Of a DNA stretch of 64,000 bases, positions 1,224 to 10,686 are shown one piece after another. The notes below the pieces were generated by a model. That model was given only the letters and a program-made list of their open reading frames with translations, had not been told where the DNA came from and did not search any database. A program made the translations under genes and the position numbers. Source of the DNA: Gemmatimonadota bacterium (lineage in GTDB: Bacteria > JAAXHH01); the NCBI GenBank assembly GCA_009838645.1, contig VXRC01000049.1, positions 310,001-374,000 on the forward strand, read 5' to 3'. Positions within the stretch are counted from its first letter, which is position 1, and each line of letters begins with the position of its first letter.

Positions 1224-3548
1224 ATGGGCGTTACGCTGGCGAATTCACTTACCGCGTATTTCGACTTCATCTGGATGTCGTTCCTGTTGCTGGGGCCGAT
1301 GCTGATCCTGGGTCTGCTGCTCTCCGGCCTGATCCACGTGTTCATCTCCCGGGAAGCGATCCTCAAATGGCTCCAGGACGACAGCCTCCGGTCGGTCTCC
1401 GTCAGTTCCGCGGTTGGCGTGCCGGTCCCCCTCTGCAGCTGTTCCGTCGTTCCCGTCGTGGCCGAAATGCGCCGGAAGGGCGCTTCCCGGTCGTCCTGCA
1501 TGGCCTTCCTGATCACCGCGCCGGAAACCGGAGCGGACTCCATCCTCGTCACCAACGCGTTTTTCGGGTTCATCGCCGCCGTGGTACGCCCCGCCATCAG
1601 TTTCATAACGGCCGTCGTGGCGGGCATCTTCTGCATTGGTCTGATCCGGGACGACAGCGGTGAAGTCAAACCGGGCGAGGAAGATCACGACCATCACAGC
1701 CATGATCACGACCACCACGGCCATGACCACGATCACGACCACGATCATGAACACGCGGTCCACGATCCGTTGATATCGGACAAGGACGACTGCTACGTCA
1801 GTCCCGCCGCCATGAAGGTCCTGATGGCGCGATGGATCAAGAGTATAACCACCGTGGCCTCCACCTGGAAGTTCGGATCGTGGATCAAACCCGAATTCTA
1901 CCGCGAAATCGCCGGGGAACAGGCGAAAAAGTCCAGTGAGGCCGTCAAAGTGGACCGGGTGGCGGAGGAATATCCCGGTCTCGATTTCAAGAAGATCGTC
2001 AAACACATCATGCACTACGGCTTTGTAGAGATCGCCGACGATATCCTCTTCGCGCTGCTCGTCGGCATCGCACTGGGCGGCGTGCTCTTTCTCGTCATTC
2101 CGGCCGACCTGATGTCGAACGAGTACGCGCGCTGGCTGTCCTACCCCGTCATGATCATCGTAGGCGTGCCCCTCTACATTTGCGCTTCGGCCAGCACCCC
2201 GATAGCGGCCGCGCTGGTAGCCCGAGGCGTGAGCCCCGGCGCCGCGCTGATATTCCTGATGACCGGACCGGCTACCAACACGAGCACCATCGCCATCATC
2301 ATGAGCCAATTCGGTGCGCGTTTCGCGGCCATCTACGTGACCACCGTCATCGTGGTTACGGCCGTGATCGGCATCGCCATCGATTTCATGCTGCTGGCGA
2401 CGGGCTTCGCGATTTCGGTCAACCTGCTCCCTTCCGAATCCCCCGCGATCCAGTTCATCCAGTGGGGCGGCGCGATCTTATTAATCGCGCTGATCCTCTG
2501 GCGGTACCGCGCGGGCGCCATGCGCAGAGGGTACGAAGACATGATGGTCAACGTCCGTCCGTTGTCCAGGCCCTGGCGCAACGCCTGGAAGCGGCTGACG
2601 CGGGACCGGTCCTTCCGGGGTACGGTCTCGCCCGCCACGCCGCTGGGCATGATGCTCTGGGGCCTGCTGCTGGTCCTGTTCCTCGGCAGCGGGTTCACGA
2701 CCGTGCCGCCCGGGCACGTCGGATACGGCCTGTTGTTCGGACAGGTATACTGGAAAGACCTGCAACCCGGGCTGCACTACCTGGCGCCCCGCCCCCTGGT
2801 GCGGGTGGACAAGTGGCCGGTCAAGGAAGTGAAGTCCATCATGTCCGACACCCCGTACGAGTACGTATCGGGCGACCTGAACATGCTCACGCTCACCCTG
2901 GACGTACAGTACCGCGTGAAAGACCCGTACACTTACCATTATCGTACGATCGACCCGGAGGAGATCATTGAAGACGCGGTCCGCGAGCACCTGCGCACTT
3001 TCATCAATGCCCGCGACCTCGATCGCCTGCTTACCGCATACCGGGCGGACATGGTCGACGAACTGACGAATCTCTTCGTCGTGGACGCCGAGATGCATGG
3101 AGACAAGACCATTCTAAGCACTGTCGATCTCGTGAAGGTAAGCCTGCTGGACATCACTCCGGCCGCGGAAGCGATGAACTCGTTCCGGGAGATCTCCAGC
3201 GCCCAGGAAGACCGGGAGCGGATCATCGTCAACGCGCAGAGGTTCATGGTCTCCCTGGTGCCGCGTGCCTACGGCAACGCCGAGTATGAAAGAGAGCAGG
3301 CCGATGGAGAGGCTTTCAGGAAGGTGGCGACCTCCGCGGCGGAAGCGGATGCCATCCTGGTCATTTCATCGGCGATGCGGACGGCGCCGGAAGTCCTCAG
3401 GAACATGCTCTGGCGCGAGAAGCTGGAAACCGCACTCGCGGGGAACCCCAAGATCATCGTGCCCAACCGACAGAGTTTCAACAAGGTCGCGATCTGGAAG
3501 AAGAGAACGGCGGAGGCCGCCGCCCCGGACGGCCACGACAGGAGGTAA
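1224..3548 (+). CDS. Fusion of a DUF318/ArsP-type metal permease with an HflK-like SPFH domain
   Basis: About 774 residues with two parts that are normally separate proteins. Residues 1-430 are a polytopic permease of the YraQ/ArsP group (closest to the SO_0444 Cu/Zn efflux type). They carry a PLCSCSVVP cysteine motif near residue 70, a repeat-like second half with PLYICASASTPIAAAL near 317, and a cytoplasmic-loop His/Asp cluster at about 156-178, as expected for a metal-handling transporter. After a basic linker, a new membrane helix at about 475-492 leads into a full SPFH/band-7 domain, GFTTVPPGHVGYGLLFGQ onward, whose C-terminal part resembles HflK. ATG 1224 is preferred over the adjacent TTG at 1221 because GGGAG at 1211-1215 is 8 nt upstream. 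The next gene's Shine-Dalgarno overlaps this stop, so the genes are cotranscribed. The transported ion is inferred. Confidence 0.85.
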   Translation: MGVTLANSLTAYFDFIWMSFLLLGPMLILGLLLSGLIHVFISREAILKWLQDDSLRSVSVSSAVGVPVPLCSCSVVPVVAEMRRKGASRSSCMAFLITAPETGADSILVTNAFFGFIAAVVRPAISFITAVVAGIFCIGLIRDDSGEVKPGEEDHDHHSHDHDHHGHDHDHDHDHEHAVHDPLISDKDDCYVSPAAMKVLMARWIKSITTVASTWKFGSWIKPEFYREIAGEQAKKSSEAVKVDRVAEEYPGLDFKKIVKHIMHYGFVEIADDILFALLVGIALGGVLFLVIPADLMSNEYARWLSYPVMIIVGVPLYICASASTPIAAALVARGVSPGAALIFLMTGPATNTSTIAIIMSQFGARFAAIYVTTVIVVTAVIGIAIDFMLLATGFAISVNLLPSESPAIQFIQWGGAILLIALILWRYRAGAMRRGYEDMMVNVRPLSRPWRNAWKRLTRDRSFRGTVSPATPLGMMLWGLLLVLFLGSGFTTVPPGHVGYGLLFGQVYWKDLQPGLHYLAPRPLVRVDKWPVKEVKSIMSDTPYEYVSGDLNMLTLTLDVQYRVKDPYTYHYRTIDPEEIIEDAVREHLRTFINARDLDRLLTAYRADMVDELTNLFVVDAEMHGDKTILSTVDLVKVSLLDITPAAEAMNSFREISSAQEDRERIIVNAQRFMVSLVPRAYGNAEYEREQADGEAFRKVATSAAEADAILVISSAMRTAPEVLRNMLWREKLETALAGNPKIIVPNRQSFNKVAIWKKRTAEAAAPDGHDRR

Positions 3549-3554
3549 AGGCAA

Positions 3555-4448
3555 ATGACCGGTAAAGGACGTGGTATCCGGAGGGCCATTGTCGCGCTCG
3601 TGCTGGCGGCGATCGTCTACGACTGTTTCTACGTGATCAACGAGACCCAGCAAGGGGTCCTGACGAACTTCGGCCGGATTTCTCCTCCGGTGAAGCAGCC
3701 GGGACTGCACGTCAAGTGGCCCCGCCCGATCTCGAAAGTCTACAAGGTAGACCGAAGGCTGCAGACGTTGACCGATGTGTCCCATGAACTGATTACCGAA
3801 GACCAGAAGAATATCCTGATCAGCGGCTACCTGCTCTGGCGTATCGTGGATCCCATTCTCTACGTGGAGGCGATTCGTACCGGCGAAAACGCCACTGAAA
3901 GACTGCGGGACCTCTATCTGTCGAGCAGCGGGATCGTAATCAGCAACAAGGCCCGGGACGCCTTCATCAGCCTCGGGCTGGAACATGAAGACCTGCATGA
4001 AGCGGCCCGTGACATACTCGGCAACGTCGCGCCGATCGCCAGTGCGAACTACGGCATCGAGGTACTGAAAGCCGGGATCATCGAGTATACGCTTCCCGTG
4101 GAGAACCGCCCGGCCGTGATTCAGCGCATGATCTCGGAGCGCGCGCGCATCGCGGCCCGATACCGGAGCGAGGGCGAAGAGATGGCCATACGCATCGAAG
4201 CGCTGGCGATCAACGAACACGAGAAGCTCATGGCGGAAGCCCACGCGGAAGCCACGGCCATTCTCGGCGAGGCCGAGGCGGAAGCGATGGCGCTGCTCGG
4301 CAGGGCCTATCGGAATGACCCGGCTTTCTACCGGTTCATCCGTGCACTCGACAGTTACGACCTGATTATCGACAAGAACACGACCCTCATGCTGCCGGCC
4401 GACAACGAGCTGTTCAGGTACCTGGACAGCCGAACGGTTCCCCGGTAA
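3555..4448 (+). CDS. HflC-like SPFH membrane protein
   Basis: A 297-residue protein with one N-terminal membrane anchor (about residues 9-25), an SPFH/band-7 domain starting NETQQGVLTNFGRI, and an Ala/Glu-rich coiled coil at about 215-255. The end, RNDPAFYRFIRALDSYD followed by LPADNELFRYL, is the typical HflC C-terminus. In E. coli HflC and HflK form a periplasm-facing complex that surrounds and restrains FtsH. A GGAGG at 3541-3545, overlapping the previous stop, sets the start. The gene lies between an SPFH-fused permease and an HflK-like gene, giving three SPFH modules in a row. FtsH is not in the window, so the partner protease is unproven, and a metal-related role is suggested only by the neighbours. 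Confidence 0.85.
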   Translation: MTGKGRGIRRAIVALVLAAIVYDCFYVINETQQGVLTNFGRISPPVKQPGLHVKWPRPISKVYKVDRRLQTLTDVSHELITEDQKNILISGYLLWRIVDPILYVEAIRTGENATERLRDLYLSSSGIVISNKARDAFISLGLEHEDLHEAARDILGNVAPIASANYGIEVLKAGIIEYTLPVENRPAVIQRMISERARIAARYRSEGEEMAIRIEALAINEHEKLMAEAHAEATAILGEAEAEAMALLGRAYRNDPAFYRFIRALDSYDLIIDKNTTLMLPADNELFRYLDSRTVPR

Positions 4449-4464
4449 AACGAGCGCTGATTCC

Positions 4465-5799
4465 ATGACAAACGAAAACCGGCCTCTACCCTATAGCACG
4501 CGCGTCATCTACGCCCTGTTCGATTCGGCCCGGGCCTTCGGCTGGAACCGGCTGTTCTGGAGCCTGGCCGCCCTGGCCGTCGCCGCGGTGATGGCGAGTG
4601 GGTTCTATATCGTCAAAAAAGAAGAACAGGGCGTCCTCGTGCGGTTCGGCAAAGTGGTGGACGAAAACATCGGCCCCGGTATCCATTACTGCGTGCCGTT
4701 CATCTATGAAACCCACATCCGCAAGGTAAAGCGCATCGTCCGCGTGCCCATCGCAAGCGAAGCAACGATGGGGGATACGCACGTCACGTTGTTGTCCGGC
4801 GACACGAACCTGGTCGAGCTGGACGTTGCCGTGCAGTACAAGATCGATAACCTGCGAAGCTACCTCTTCGCGGTTACGGACCCGACGATGCTGATGACCA
4901 TGATCGTGCGGGAGGAAATGGTCAACATCGTGGGGCAGAACTTCATCGACCTGATCCTGACGTCCAACCGGAGTATCATCGAGCGCCACCTCCATGACTA
5001 CCTCGCAGGACGCCTGGAGGCGATCGACATCGGCATCGAGCTGGTCGACCTGAACATCGTGGACATCCGACCCATCGAGGAGACCGTGGAAGCGTTCCGG
5101 GACGTCAATGACGCCATATCAGAACGTATGCAGTCCATCAGCAACGCCAATCAGCGCAGGGAGAAGCTCATCGCCCGGACGAAAGGGCAGACGGAAGCGA
5201 TCATCATGGATGCCCGGGCCACGGCGCGGGAACGGGTCCTCCAGGCCGAGAGCAGCGCCGGCGCTTTCACCATGCTGCTGGCCGAATACCGAAGGCAGCC
5301 GGCCCAGGTCGGTATCACCCGGTACTGGCAGCGCATGCGCACGATCTTTGCCGAGGCGAACCTGGCGGCGGTCAATCCCGGCAACGACGCGAATATCGAG
5401 GTCAATCTCATCGACGAAGGATCGGGACTGACGCCCGCCGACCTGGCTTTCGATTCACCGGGCGCCCTGGCCGCTTCCGGTCCCGACTCCCTGGACAGGC
5501 CGGTTTTTTCAACGCTTCCACCGGATATACACCGTTATGAGAACATCGACCGGGATGGATTCCTCATCGATGGAAGGTTCCATAGCCGCAACACGGAGCG
5601 GGATCATCTTCCGGTGGCCGCGCCTCGATCGCTCATTTTCGACACGCCGTCCATTTTCAGCCACGGCCACGTAACGACCAGCAGCATAGACGAGGCGAGT
5701 CAGACCGGTGAAAAAGCGCTGGCCGAGACCATGCACGAAGATGAAAGCGAAGAAGAAAAAACGGGTACCGAAGGGAGCCAAAGTGATCCAAAGCAATAG
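4465..5799 (+). CDS. HflK-like SPFH membrane protein with long acidic tail
   Basis: A 444-residue protein. It has a cytoplasmic N-terminus, a membrane helix at about residues 29-47 and an SPFH domain beginning VKKEEQGVLVRFGKVVDENI. The C-terminal helix (ARATARERVLQAESSAG, then EYRRQPAQVGITRYWQRM) matches the HflK pattern. About 130 residues follow the usual HflK end, finishing in a Glu/Lys-rich segment; this tail is atypical and its role is not evident. It starts 16 nt after the HflC-like stop. It probably forms hetero-oligomers with the HflC-like protein and perhaps with the SPFH domain of the permease fusion; that is inference from family and operon. Confidence 0.85.
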   Translation: MTNENRPLPYSTRVIYALFDSARAFGWNRLFWSLAALAVAAVMASGFYIVKKEEQGVLVRFGKVVDENIGPGIHYCVPFIYETHIRKVKRIVRVPIASEATMGDTHVTLLSGDTNLVELDVAVQYKIDNLRSYLFAVTDPTMLMTMIVREEMVNIVGQNFIDLILTSNRSIIERHLHDYLAGRLEAIDIGIELVDLNIVDIRPIEETVEAFRDVNDAISERMQSISNANQRREKLIARTKGQTEAIIMDARATARERVLQAESSAGAFTMLLAEYRRQPAQVGITRYWQRMRTIFAEANLAAVNPGNDANIEVNLIDEGSGLTPADLAFDSPGALAASGPDSLDRPVFSTLPPDIHRYENIDRDGFLIDGRFHSRNTERDHLPVAAPRSLIFDTPSIFSHGHVTTSSIDEASQTGEKALAETMHEDESEEEKTGTEGSQSDPKQ

Positions 5800-6964
5800 C
5801 GTGATCCCCGGCAACAGACTGTTCGGCCTTGTGTCACTTGCGGCCGCGCTCGTCATCGCTGCGCTGGCGCATCCTGCGCCGGTCCGGGCGGAGACCGGCG
5901 TAACCTCCGAAGCCATCGTGTTCGGCCAGAGCGCGTGCTTCACAGGTCCCAACCGCAACCTGGGCCTGTACTACCGGGCGGGCATCCTTTCGGCATTCGA
6001 AGAACTGAACCGCGCAGGCGGCATCAACGGAAGAACGCTCAGGCTGCTTTCGCTGGACGATGGGTATGAACCCGAGCAGGCCGCCGCCAACGCCGAGCGG
6101 TTTGCGGCGGAGAACGACGTGTTCGCGGTGATCGGCGGCGTAGGAACGCCGACCGCCAAGCGAATCGCTCCCGTGCTGCGCAGTGCCGACATCCCCTTTG
6201 TCGGGCCCTTCACCGGTGCGGATTTTCTCCGCAATTTCGACCGGTTCCCCAACGTCGTCAACCTGCGGGCGGCGTATCTGGACGAAGTCGTGACCATGGT
6301 CGATTACATCGTAAACGACCTGGGCAAGAACCGGTTCGGCGTGATTTACCAGGACGATTCCTTCGGCCGATCGGTACTGAAGAACTTCCAGATCGCCCTC
6401 GAAGCCCATGACCTCCCGATACTTGCCAAGACCGCCCATTCGCGGAATACCCACGCGGTCCACGCGGGCCTGTTCATGATCTCCAAGGCAGACCTCGACG
6501 CCATATTGATCGTGGGGTCGTACGCCGCGAACTCCGAGATCATCAACCTGTCCCACTCGCTGGGTCACGACTACATCGTGGCAAATCTCTCTTTCGTCCT
6601 TTCCCAGGAACTGAAAATGATGGTGGAAAACCGCAGTGAAAGGATCCTGGTGACCGAGGTGATTCCGGATCCGAACAGCAACAGCAGCCGGATCGCACGA
6701 CGGTTCAGAAACGCGTTGCGGCCGGAATACGGCCAGGCTGAATCCGTGGCAACCCTGGTGAACGAGGTGGCTTTCGAAGGCTACATCCTGGGTAGATACG
6801 TCATCGACGTGCTCGAACGCATGGGCGGCGAATTGACAAGGGAGCATTTCCTGAGTGTCGCGCTGTCGCCCGAAAAAGTCATGCTGGACGACTGGAGCCT
6901 GGAATTTCCGCCGGGTACGAATACCGGATCCACCTATATCCGGCTCACCAACCTGGGCGAATAA
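5783..6964 (+). CDS. Periplasmic branched-chain amino acid-type ligand-binding protein (orphan receptor)
   Basis: A type I periplasmic binding protein of about 393 residues (Leu/Ile/Val-binding fold). The signal peptide is around LFGLVSLAAALVIAALA with cleavage near VRA. The mature part opens TSEAIVFGQSACFTGPNRNLG and has the family segments GGINGRTLRLLSLDDGYEP and FAVIGGVGTPTAKRIAPVL. The GTG at 5783 is chosen because AAGGGAG (5771-5777) sits 5 nt upstream and the signal peptide then begins near the N-terminus; in-frame starts at 5708 and 5741 are possible. It overlaps the HflK-like gene by 17 nt. No ABC permease or ATPase is nearby. It is a clear paralogue of the protein at 12935-14146, which sits beside a histidine kinase, so a sensory role is more likely than uptake. 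Confidence 0.85.
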   Translation: MIQSNSVIPGNRLFGLVSLAAALVIAALAHPAPVRAETGVTSEAIVFGQSACFTGPNRNLGLYYRAGILSAFEELNRAGGINGRTLRLLSLDDGYEPEQAAANAERFAAENDVFAVIGGVGTPTAKRIAPVLRSADIPFVGPFTGADFLRNFDRFPNVVNLRAAYLDEVVTMVDYIVNDLGKNRFGVIYQDDSFGRSVLKNFQIALEAHDLPILAKTAHSRNTHAVHAGLFMISKADLDAILIVGSYAANSEIINLSHSLGHDYIVANLSFVLSQELKMMVENRSERILVTEVIPDPNSNSSRIARRFRNALRPEYGQAESVATLVNEVAFEGYILGRYVIDVLERMGGELTREHFLSVALSPEKVMLDDWSLEFPPGTNTGSTYIRLTNLGE

Positions 6965-6988
6965 CAACCTGCAAGCGAGGTACGGCCA

Positions 6989-7477
6989 TTGAAGAAGGTA
7001 GATGAGTTCACCGTCGAGGAAATCGGCGAGGAGTGGCTGCGCGAGCTATACAAGGTCGTTGCGCTCCGACGCGGCACCATGTTCAGGATGATCACCGAAT
7101 CGGCCCGCCTCCTGTTGTTCGGCAATGCGGGCGGCGCCGCGCTGATCATCGGTTTCATGAGCACGGCGACGGGCGACCAGGGATCCTCCTACCACTGGTT
7201 CAGCCTGTTTTCGCTACTCGCCTTCGCCCTGGGCACCCTGGCCTCCGCCATGACGATGATCCTGGTGGCCGTGGTTTCCGTGAAGGAAACCCACGGCGCC
7301 GAGAAAGGGCTGAAGCGATTCGTCGACGGTGAGATAAACCGGTCGCAGGTCATGTTTACCATCGAAGAACAGACTTTCCGCCTCGCGGATTCGGCCACCG
7401 TTTCCGGGGTCGTAAGCGCGTTGGGGTTCATGGTCGGCGGCCTGATCACCATTGCCCTGCTCATGATTTTCTTCTAG
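6989..7477 (+). CDS. Small multi-pass membrane protein of unknown function
   Basis: A 162-residue protein I do not recognise. A charged N-terminal segment (about 45 residues) is followed by hydrophobic stretches at about 47-60, 68-92 and 140-162, with a hydrophilic section between the last two. It starts at TTG 6989 with GCGAGG at 6975-6980. It lies 24 nt after the ligand-binding protein and ahead of the ZIP transporter, so it is probably in the same operon. It could be an accessory subunit of one of the transporters or of the SPFH assembly; nothing in the sequence decides this. Confidence 0.7.
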   Translation: MKKVDEFTVEEIGEEWLRELYKVVALRRGTMFRMITESARLLLFGNAGGAALIIGFMSTATGDQGSSYHWFSLFSLLAFALGTLASAMTMILVAVVSVKETHGAEKGLKRFVDGEINRSQVMFTIEEQTFRLADSATVSGVVSALGFMVGGLITIALLMIFF

Positions 7478-7557: not shown

Positions 7558-8430
7558 ATGAACGATATCTTGCTGTTACTCCTCGCGTATTCGACGGCGA
7601 TCCTCGCCGTGTCCCTTCTCGGCGGCAAGCTTTCGGCCATCGTCACCATGACCCACACCCGGACGCAACTGGTCATGAGTCTCGTGGCGGGGTTTCTCCT
7701 GGGCGTCGCCATGTACCATCTGCTGTTGCACAGCCTCGAAGATATCCCCGGTCCGCATGCCGGTGAAATCGCCGTGGGTTGCGCGGTACTGGGCGTCATC
7801 ATGATCATCGTACTGCTGCGTATCTTCCGGTTTCATCAGCACGAACCAGACCAGGAAGCGGTCCGGATACCGGATCACCATGACCACCACGACCACCAGG
7901 GTGCGATGGACGTCAATCCCCGAAGCGTGTTCGGCGTCGCCACGGGCCTCGGCCTGCATACCATCACCGAGGGGATCGCCCTCGGCGCCAGCATGCGCGT
8001 CGGCTTGATGCACGACGGGGGCACGATGCTCGCGGGACTGGGCGTGTTTCTTGCGATCATGCTGCATAAGCCCCTGGACGCGTACTCCATCATCGGACTG
8101 ATGCGGGTATCCGGTTACGGGAACCGGACCTGCACGCTGACCAACATCGGTTTCGCCCTGCTTTGTCCGCTCGTCACCATATTGACCTTTTTCGGCGTCG
8201 GCCTCCTGAGTCAACTCGACGAACTGCACGTCGTGGGTTACGTCATGGCCTTCGCCGCCGGTGTTTTCCTGTGCATTTCACTGAGCGACCTGCTGCCCGA
8301 GATCCAGTTTCACAGCCATGACCGCGGCATTCTCATCCTGGCCTTCCTGATCGGCATCGGTCTCGCGTACGCTCTTTTCCATTTCGAATCCGAGACCATG
8401 CACGGGCTGGACACGTTGCATTCCCACTAG
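7558..8430 (+). CDS. ZIP-family divalent metal transporter
   Basis: A 290-residue polytopic protein. HTITEGIALG matches the HxxxEG motif of transmembrane helix IV of ZIP transporters, and MLHKPLDAYSI matches the following metal-site helix. A His/Asp cluster (HHDHHDHQG) lies in the loop between helices III and IV, as in many zinc or iron ZIP proteins. ZIP proteins usually import zinc, iron or manganese into the cytoplasm; the metal cannot be told here. The Shine-Dalgarno is weak. An 80-nt gap separates it from the small membrane protein. The next gene, copA, follows by 27 nt. Pairing an importer-type carrier with efflux-type genes is notable, and the operon may control more than one metal. Confidence 0.85.
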   Translation: MNDILLLLLAYSTAILAVSLLGGKLSAIVTMTHTRTQLVMSLVAGFLLGVAMYHLLLHSLEDIPGPHAGEIAVGCAVLGVIMIIVLLRIFRFHQHEPDQEAVRIPDHHDHHDHQGAMDVNPRSVFGVATGLGLHTITEGIALGASMRVGLMHDGGTMLAGLGVFLAIMLHKPLDAYSIIGLMRVSGYGNRTCTLTNIGFALLCPLVTILTFFGVGLLSQLDELHVVGYVMAFAAGVFLCISLSDLLPEIQFHSHDRGILILAFLIGIGLAYALFHFESETMHGLDTLHSH

Positions 8431-8457: not shown

Positions 8458-10686
8458 ATGTCGACCTCCACCCAGGGAACGGATTTCGGCGTGGATACCG
8501 AAACCCGTGTATTCCACGTCGAGGGCATGACCTGCAGCGCGTGCTCGGCGCGGGTAGAGAAGGTCCTCTCCCAGGTCCCCGGTGTCGCTGCCGCTCACGT
8601 AAACCTCGCCCTCGAACGAGCGACGCTAACGGTTGCGCCCGGCGTGGAAGGCAACGCGCTGTCCGGCCCCGTGGCCGCCGCGGGGTACCGGCTGAGCGCA
8701 GTTCAGGACGACCGGCACGAGCCCGAAGAGGATCCCGGACAGTCCCGTCGGGACCGTGTCGCCATGGTCGTCGCGATTTGCGTGACGATTCCCTTCCTGC
8801 TGCAGATGCTGGCCGGGCTGCTGCGGAGCTGGACCGGTTTCGACGGGCACATGCCGGTATACGCGGAAGCGACGCTCGCGACCGTGCTGCAGATCGGCAT
8901 CGGTGCCCGTTACTACCGGAGCGCTTTCCACGCGCTGCGCGGCGGCGGTGCGAACATGGACGTCCTGGTGGCCCTGGGAACCACTTCGGCCTACGCGTAC
9001 AGCGCCTACCTTGCTTACAGCCTGGGCGCCGGCGCGGCGGGTCAACTATACTTCGAAGCCTCCGCGATCATCATTACCCTCGTACTCATCGGCAAGCACA
9101 TCGAAAGCCGGGCGCGCCGCAGCGCGAGCCGGGCGATTCGGGAATTGCTGGCGATCCGGCCGGTTACCGCGCGGGTACGTACGGCGGACGGCTCTGAGCG
9201 GGATACGCCGGTACATGCCTTGCAGCCCGGCGACGTCGTCATCTGCCGTCCGGGCGACCGGGTGGCCGCGGACGGCGTCGTGCTCCGGGGCGAAGCCGAA
9301 GTCGACGAAGCGCTCATCACCGGTGAGAGCGTCCCGGCACCCAAACACCCGGACGACACGGTAATCGCCGGATCGATGAACATCAACGGCCTCCTGGAAA
9401 TCGAAGCCCGGGCCGTGGGCAGCGATTCGACGCTAGGGCGGGTGATCCGCCTGGTCGAAAGCTCACAGGCCGCCAAGCCGGCCATCCAGCGTTTGGTGGA
9501 TCGCGTAAGCGCCGTATTCGTACCGGCCGTCGTCGGTCTGGCCCTAATCACCTTCGTCGCGTGGGTTCTTTCGGGGGCCGGCCTGGAACCTGCGTTGATC
9601 AATGCCGTCTCCGTCCTCGTCATCGCCTGCCCCTGCGCACTGGGCCTGGCGACGCCGACGGCCATCGTGGCCGGTGCGGGCGTGGCGGCCCGGGCGGGCA
9701 TTCTGGTCAGGGACATCGAATCCCTGGAACAGGCCAATGACTTGACGCACGTCGTTTTCGACAAGACGGGCACCCTGACCGAAGGCCGGCCCGCCATCGC
9801 ATCCGTTACGCCCCTGGCCGAGCGGAACGAAGGCGATCTGCTTCGCATCGCCGCGTCGCTGCAGCAGGGCAGCGAGCATCCCCTGGCCACCGCGTTTCTG
9901 CGCACGGCCACGGAACGGGACATCGCCCTGGCCGACGTAAGTGGATTCAGGAGCATGGTGGCGAAAGGGGTCCAGGGAGAAATCGAAGGCGCAGGCTACT
10001 TGCTTGGAAACCGGAGGCTCTTCGATGAGTGCTGTCCGGGCATCGAGCCTCCCGACGCATGGGATAGCGGGGGTTCCACCCTGGTCTGGCTGGCGGCCCG
10101 AACTGATGCCGGATGCGCATTCCTCGCACGCTTCGAACTCATCGACGCGTTGCGGCCCGATGCGGCCTTGGCGGTGGATGGTCTCAGGAAGCTGGGGGTC
10201 AAGCCTCTGCTGGTGTCCGGCGACGCGGAGGCCGTCGTGGAGCGTATCGGACGGCAGGCCGGCATAGACGAAACCTACGGTGCTGCTACGCCGGAAGAAA
10301 AGGAGCGTATCGTAAGCCGTTTGATGGAGAGCGGCGCCAAAGTTTGCATGGTCGGAGACGGAATCAACGACGCGCCCGCCCTCGCCCGTGCGTCCGTGGG
10401 GATCGCCATGGGCTCCGGTACGGACGTGGCCATGGAAACGGCCGCGATCACGCTGATGAGACCCGATCCGACCCTGGTGGCCGGGGCGATCGACGTAAGC
10501 CGGAAGACGATTCGGAAAATCAAGCAGAATCTGTTCTGGGCGTTTATCTACAACGTAATCGGACTGCCCCTCGCGGCGCTGGGATTCCTCGTCCCCGCAT
10601 TCGCCGCGGCGATGATGGCGTGCTCCAGCGTCAGCGTCGTCCTGAACTCGTTGACGCTCCGTTCCTGGCGTCCCGGAAACAGGTAG
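8458..10686 (+). CDS. copA: Copper-translocating P1B-type ATPase
   Basis: A 742-residue protein that exports Cu(I) from the cytoplasm using ATP. One heavy-metal-associated domain at the N-terminus carries GMTCSACS (Cys26 and Cys29). The membrane CPC motif is at residues 391-393, the phosphorylated aspartate at 435 in DKTGTLTEG, the HP motif at 474-475 and GDGINDAPA at about 633-641. The last helices contain FIYNVIG and MACSSVSVV, the residues that mark the copper (P1B-1) subgroup. It is the last gene of the plus-strand locus and closes with a post-stop tandem repeat before a convergent histidine kinase gene. Confidence 0.96.
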   Translation: MSTSTQGTDFGVDTETRVFHVEGMTCSACSARVEKVLSQVPGVAAAHVNLALERATLTVAPGVEGNALSGPVAAAGYRLSAVQDDRHEPEEDPGQSRRDRVAMVVAICVTIPFLLQMLAGLLRSWTGFDGHMPVYAEATLATVLQIGIGARYYRSAFHALRGGGANMDVLVALGTTSAYAYSAYLAYSLGAGAAGQLYFEASAIIITLVLIGKHIESRARRSASRAIRELLAIRPVTARVRTADGSERDTPVHALQPGDVVICRPGDRVAADGVVLRGEAEVDEALITGESVPAPKHPDDTVIAGSMNINGLLEIEARAVGSDSTLGRVIRLVESSQAAKPAIQRLVDRVSAVFVPAVVGLALITFVAWVLSGAGLEPALINAVSVLVIACPCALGLATPTAIVAGAGVAARAGILVRDIESLEQANDLTHVVFDKTGTLTEGRPAIASVTPLAERNEGDLLRIAASLQQGSEHPLATAFLRTATERDIALADVSGFRSMVAKGVQGEIEGAGYLLGNRRLFDECCPGIEPPDAWDSGGSTLVWLAARTDAGCAFLARFELIDALRPDAALAVDGLRKLGVKPLLVSGDAEAVVERIGRQAGIDETYGAATPEEKERIVSRLMESGAKVCMVGDGINDAPALARASVGIAMGSGTDVAMETAAITLMRPDPTLVAGAIDVSRKTIRKIKQNLFWAFIYNVIGLPLAALGFLVPAFAAAMMACSSVSVVLNSLTLRSWRPGNR

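Follow-up and report, generated by a model that had tools for sequence, protein, structure and literature searches.

A single gene in a Gemmatimonadota bacterium encodes a predicted copper/zinc efflux permease joined to a complete HflK-like SPFH protein, and the genes directly downstream encode an HflC-type and an HflK-type protein. It was identified in the window, by which we mean the whole stretch of 64,000 nt of contig VXRC01000049.1 that was analyzed. We propose, with a probability of roughly 0.6, that the C-terminus of the exporter became an HflK-type subunit, and that the fusion, HflC and HflK would co-assemble into a hybrid HflKC-type cage. A search of the open-licence PMC literature found no description of a transporter-HflK fusion.

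A metal permease and a complete HflK-like protein share one reading frame

The preliminary description of this region, made from the DNA letters, held that one frame encodes a metal permease, a fresh membrane helix and a full HflK-like SPFH domain, and this was borne out by the intact ORF, by Pfam and by a profile match. The single frame is open from 1221 (TTG) or from 1224 (ATG, preceded by GGGAG), and its stop codon ends at 3548 (Table 1). Pfam placed ArsP_1 at residues 24-387 (147.8 bits) and Band_7 at residues 493-671 (50.1 bits).

Table 1. Features of the fusion gene and of the genes downstream of it in the 64,000-nt window
Feature	Position	Strand	Remarks
Fusion gene, predicted SO_0444-type Cu/Zn efflux permease plus HflK-like SPFH protein	1224-3548	+	774 aa
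Permease part	1224-2507	+	Residues 1-428; about 10 predicted helices
CSCS motif of permease	1434-1445	+	Residues 71-74
His-rich loop of permease	about 1677-1769	+	Residues about 152-182
Linker	2508-2648	+	Residues 429-475; positively charged; predicted cytosolic
Predicted membrane helix, HflK-like part	2649-2705	+	Residues 476-494
HflK-like SPFH domain, coiled coil, C-terminal strand	2700-3548	+	Predicted periplasmic
HflC-type protein	3555-4448	+	297 aa; TIGR01932 156.5 bits, above the cut-off of 134.4
HflK-type protein	4465-5799	+	444 aa; C-terminal extension; TIGR01933 160.0 bits, barely above the cut-off of 159.4
Periplasmic solute-binding protein (Peripla_BP_6)	5708-6964	+	True start uncertain, overlaps end of HflK gene
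Small protein	6989-7477	+	Three predicted helices; no confident family; last cassette gene
ZIP-family metal transporter	7558-8430	+	Stays beside the permease after cassette loss
Heavy-metal P-type ATPase	8458-10686	+	Assigned by CPC, DKTGT and GDGIND motifs

The permease had been described as DUF318/ArsP-type with a CSCS motif and a His-rich loop; both elements were located, and the ArsP_1 match upholds the type, which can be given more exactly as the SO_0444 Cu/Zn efflux family (NCBIfam NF033936), to which residues 19-425 score 314.6 bits against a cut-off of 300, with relatives scoring 356-366. In the ten permease fusions that could be aligned over their entire length, PLCSC (residues 69-73) is invariant (10/10), and the residue that follows is S, except in loci L080 and L081, where it is G. 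By score and motif the permease is thus of the SO_0444-family Cu/Zn efflux type, with efflux activity as a prediction; Shewanella requires SO_0444 to grow when stressed by zinc or copper (PMC3219624). No relative of the permease part with a solved structure was found by sequence.

A profile built from sixteen fused SPFH parts matched residues 80-346 of Escherichia coli HflK in the cage structure 7vhp with 220 bits. This stretch takes in the membrane helix and the C-terminal strand as well as the SPFH domain and the coiled coil, so an entire HflK-like protein, and not a fragment, has been fused to the permease. The predicted helix at residues 476-494 of the window protein aligns with the membrane helix that opens the matched HflK stretch. 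With the NCBIfam model for HflK (TIGR01933), residues 499-751 score 121.9 bits, below the equivalog cut-off of 159.4, and we therefore call the fused part HflK-like and do not file it as HflK. The fused parts of loci L080, L093, L212, L221 and L223 pass this cut-off, with that of L084 just under it. The linker ahead of the SPFH helix carries 12 K/R and 3 D/E in the window protein (49-residue stretch counted), and K/R exceed D/E in the linkers of all 11 fusions counted, including L081, where the helix was misplaced by the helix caller. From this excess, the tail of the exporter probably lies in the cytosol and the SPFH part in the periplasm, the arrangement known from HflK. The dN/dS of the linker (0.05-0.21) is similar to that of the flanking domains (SPFH part, 0.05-0.13), i.e., permease, linker and SPFH part are alike under purifying selection.

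The next two genes in the window, which the preliminary description had missed as SPFH proteins, encode HflC and HflK; the gene at 3555-4448 matches E. coli HflC (7vhp) with E=3e-34. Four further SPFH genes are present elsewhere in the genome of the window, and the three that were scored all fall under the HflK and HflC cut-offs. ABC partner genes for the Peripla_BP_6 protein (5708-6964) are absent among its immediate neighbours.

The fusion is conserved within the genus and the SPFH cassette can be lost

The whole fusion is present in four other genomes of the genus, at 97, 95, 89 and 82% identity, and the junction is spanned in a fifth. Examination of 12 genomes of the genus demonstrated that in 7 of them the permease is followed by a cassette of five genes, SPFH1-HflC-HflK-PBP-small membrane protein, and that in 4 it is followed directly by ZIP; in the remaining genome (G007), no permease was found. 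The fusion runs unbroken through the junction in 6 of the 7 cassette genomes. A frameshift at the junction, which we looked for, is absent from the window and was seen only in the relative G004 (L041, G004:C140), where a 1-base deletion splits the fusion; further 1-base deletions are present across the fusion and HflC of this genome, and the interruption is better explained by sequencing error or decay than by an originally separate pair of genes. HflC proteins above the cut-off occur in these 12 genomes only at the fusion locus: the cassette-less genomes contain none, and the frameshifted copy of G004 is also under the cut-off. The P-type ATPase adjoins ZIP in most related genomes.

Two observations bear on the loss of the cassette. 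G006 (L044, G006:C128, about 2584-2768) contains a scar in which a frame-shifted start of the linker is joined to the final bases of the gene for the small membrane protein, i.e., by its sequence this locus is one from which the cassette was deleted while the permease was retained. In addition, the permeases of G003, G009 and G010 cluster together inside the genus, among the fused ones, a grouping that points to a second loss. By these sequence traces the SPFH cassette has been lost by deletion at least once in the genus, and retention of the permease without it means that the SPFH part modifies the permease and is not required by it. Beyond the genus, G323, from the same domain, contains a fused permease at 66% identity with the same binding-protein and small-membrane-protein genes, so that the cassette either predates the genus or has passed from one lineage to another.

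Other features of these loci were also recorded. In the genus and in G323, the genes for the binding protein and the three-helix protein (5708-7477) accompany the SPFH cassette. Another binding protein, which shares about 40% identity with that of the cassette, is encoded on the opposite strand a few kb off in L035, L037 and L040-L043, and it is present also where the cassette is absent. In L037 (G011:C58, about 5750-6040), long C runs and N lie between the fusion and HflC genes and represent an assembly flaw.

The same HflK-like module is fused to unrelated heavy-metal exporters

We looked for the combination of ArsP_1 and Band_7 elsewhere and found it in several genomes of the genus and in other phyla. 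In total, five more genomes of the genus carry the permease fusion, as do eight other families from at least four other small phyla. Searches by phylum assigned the first relatives to four small phyla, each distinct from the others and from the phylum of the window, and a profile of the fusion run on 288 genomes of the domain recovered the same architecture in other families; relatives in other phyla are about 30% identical. Pfam confirmed both domains in one ORF in G140, G277, G256, G121, G089, G230 and G108, and later in G300, G299, G296 (second copy), G363, G323 and G410. A contig scan with the window protein returned mostly distant permease-only matches, plus a triad in Pedosphaera sp. (Lake Baikal, Verrucomicrobiota; L009, 5107-6996), the first protein of which has six predicted N-terminal helices with no Pfam match. 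Among plasmid records, no fusion was found, only ordinary hflK. One candidate was rejected: in L089 (G048), the reading frame simply stays open ahead of the start of an ordinary HflK, giving 649 aa.

Using the SPFH part of the fusions alone as a query revealed a wider class, in which a transporter bearing an HflK-like part (HflK′) precedes HflC and HflK. This class comprises 50 loci in 49 genomes and 19 families, where the profiles used for counting were built from few sequences, Pfam was run singly on about half of the fusions, with the profiles covering the rest, the family count follows group codes, and most of the genomes appear to be fragmented MAGs. HflC and then HflK lie directly downstream on the same strand in 47 of the 50 loci, and the other 3 end at a contig or locus boundary. 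The preliminary description had suggested that the fusion would physically tie a metal transporter to a membrane-scaffold or FtsH-control assembly. The fusion recurs and is conserved, and the HflC and HflK genes that follow it at once at all untruncated loci support a physical tie to an HflKC-type assembly, with FtsH control as one of several possible consequences. The transporter is a CDF protein in 26 loci, SO_0444/ArsP in 21, and a P1B ATPase, an EamA protein and an unrecognised six-helix protein in one each. ZIP is found in the same gene run at 12 of the 21 ArsP-type loci. Four more P1B fusions were identified beyond the 50, and all five genomes with such fusions, G287 (L221) and G413, G414, G416 and G415 (L251-L254), belong to one small phylum; the fusion of G415 is cut off at the contig end. 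The P1B ATPase of L221 has SEHLL in place of the usual SEHPL. A neighbour group first taken for P-type ATPases (cl1) turned out to consist of unrelated surface and other proteins. The EamA/DMT-type fusion (L149, G140:C137, 6430-8871, minus strand), also followed by HflC and HflK, is a single case. All other recognised partners are heavy-metal exporters, and the EamA fusion suggests that attachment to the module is not restricted to metal exporters. EamA excepted, the identities of the exporters (SO_0444, CDF and P1B) indicate heavy-metal efflux as the common task.

The window permease scores above the SO_0444-family cut-off (NF033936, ArsP_1/DUF318) with the CSCS motif kept, but carries a C-terminal HflK-like protein, whereas described members such as Shewanella SO_0444 (PMC3219624) and Nitratiruptor NIS_RS04910 (PMC10092412) are not reported as fused. 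In fusions with CDF proteins (TIGR01297, PF01545), the commonest partners of the class, the membrane part is recognisable, but the match stops at about position 206 of 285, and the HflK-like part replaces the usual cytosolic C-terminal domain. The fused P1B heavy-metal ATPases (TIGR01525) keep a complete core with CPC, DKTGT and GDGxND motifs; they differ from other members in the HflK-like part at the C-terminus, and no N-terminal metal-binding domain was matched in L221.

The triad is distinct from canonical HflKC

Canonical pairs are arranged as HflK then HflC, and triads as fusion-HflC-HflK. In a tree of 130 SPFH rows, made by a quick method and with some long branches that leave its inner order unsure, canonical HflC forms one group (99% support), and the triad HflK proteins form another (95% support) with the exception of two long-branched sequences. 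The fused parts branch among HflK-type proteins, separately from the group of triad HflK, and one CDF pair lies near canonical HflK. The window locus has neither the gene order nor the grouping of a canonical HflKC operon, and canonical HflKC and the triad coexist in several genomes. Separate groups in the tree, together with this coexistence, lead us to regard the triad as an old paralogous system, and not as the canonical FtsH modulator with a chance fusion. The triad resembles the HflK-HflC complex of the solved structures (7vhp, 7wi3, 9cz1 and 9cz2) in its full-length HflK-like part, adjacent HflC and HflK genes and predicted topology; it differs in that a single HflK-type gene is replaced by a pair, of which the first encodes a transporter at the N-terminus. 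An FtsH contact has been published for Arg191 of HflK; that residue number corresponds to no Arg in the sequence aligned here. An additional HflC-like gene is present near the triad in L080 (4958-5896), L081 (9766-10713) and L151 (10682-11620), and those of L080 and L081 form their own pair in the tree.

The exporter as a candidate subunit of a hybrid cage

The HflKC cage has 24 subunits, in which HflK alternates with HflC (PMC12048511). A locus with two HflK-type genes and a single HflC gene would most simply be read as encoding a mixed cage in which some HflK positions bear an exporter. In such a cage, the exporter would sit in the inner membrane, with its C-terminal tail, the positive linker, in the cytosol; the fresh helix would cross the membrane to the periplasm, where the HflK-like part would assemble with the HflC and HflK encoded by the next two genes; and the hybrid cage would carry several exporters in or around the membrane patch that it covers. 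The single frame, the domains, the complete HflK-like part, the fixed gene order, the recurrence with at least four transporter families and the distance from canonical HflKC are read from the sequences; co-assembly, topology and how many exporters a cage holds are what we infer. The finding that three unrelated types of heavy-metal exporter (SO_0444, CDF and P1B) carry the same module supports this model. Weighing against it, several species of the genus without the cassette keep the permease, ZIP and P-type ATPase, so the permease can be useful without a cage; the HflK score of the window's fused part, below the equivalog cut-off, and the EamA fusion also count against it. The consequence that we favour, although we rate it below an even chance, is that the cage would bring exporters together and retain the ion that they release within a restricted periplasmic space. 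More tentatively still, exporter-bearing HflKC-type cages may be an undescribed class of transport machine, in which the unrelated SO_0444, CDF and P1B pumps discharge into a protein-walled periplasmic chamber rather than the open periplasm and HflK′ serves as an exchangeable adaptor.

Several other explanations were weighed against the hybrid cage. An artefact of assembly or annotation might be suspected from the fragmented state of most of the genomes involved, but the architecture recurs in dozens of genomes, including the one-contig genomes G118 and G256 and a 2.87-Mb contig of G005; the window junction is therefore no assembly join, the chance of an artefact is close to nil, and for the class it is refuted. 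It is also very unlikely that a lost stop codon simply joined a neighbouring exporter gene to an HflK-like gene and that the product persists because it is harmless. The separate frames of the two halves in G004, and the fact that the cassette can be lost, would fit such an event; the G004 split is, however, a single-base deletion amid other single-base deletions, and unrelated exporters bear the same fusion, purifying selection acts on the linker and junction, the fusion has been kept in several phyla, and none of the loci examined had the exporter and HflK′ as separate, intact genes in this order.

The remaining explanations grant the SPFH part a function other than enclosure. It may only cluster exporters, gathering them in a microdomain or array that raises their density or co-locates exporter, ZIP and ATPase, with no chamber formed. 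This is a doubtful account of the data: SPFH proteins are commonly credited with organising membrane domains (PMC12624060, PMC10434171), and the ZIP genes in 12 of the 21 ArsP-type gene runs would suit co-location, but a dedicated HflC and HflK kept in fixed order favour a defined hetero-oligomer over a generic raft tag, and ZIP stays with the permease after cassette loss, i.e., it is untied to the SPFH part. We consider it unlikely that the fusion serves turnover control, with the exporter delivered to FtsH in or beside an HflKC-type complex so that proteolysis sets its level or quality; the fusion would build this substrate into the protease modulator, so as either to expose or to shield it. 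HflKC binds and encloses FtsH and alters the levels of membrane-protein substrates (PMC12048511), and E. coli without HflKC destabilises proteins including TonB (PMC12005517), as this explanation would have it. Against it, the triads form a lineage apart from canonical HflKC, a coexisting canonical HflKC could already serve FtsH, and the one published HflK-FtsH contact residue is not confidently placed on the alignment.

Implications for metal homeostasis

The layout described here, present in about 50 genomes, suggests that some bacteria build metal exporters into a membrane protein cage. The fusion makes it testable what SPFH cages contain and which roles they have beyond FtsH modulation, since here the genome itself names the cargo of an SPFH cage by covalent fusion, and this cargo is repeatedly a heavy-metal exporter of an unrelated family. 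The class is also a case of different transporters repeatedly attached to one assembly module. If true, exporter-bearing cages would represent a new layer of bacterial metal homeostasis across many little-studied phyla.
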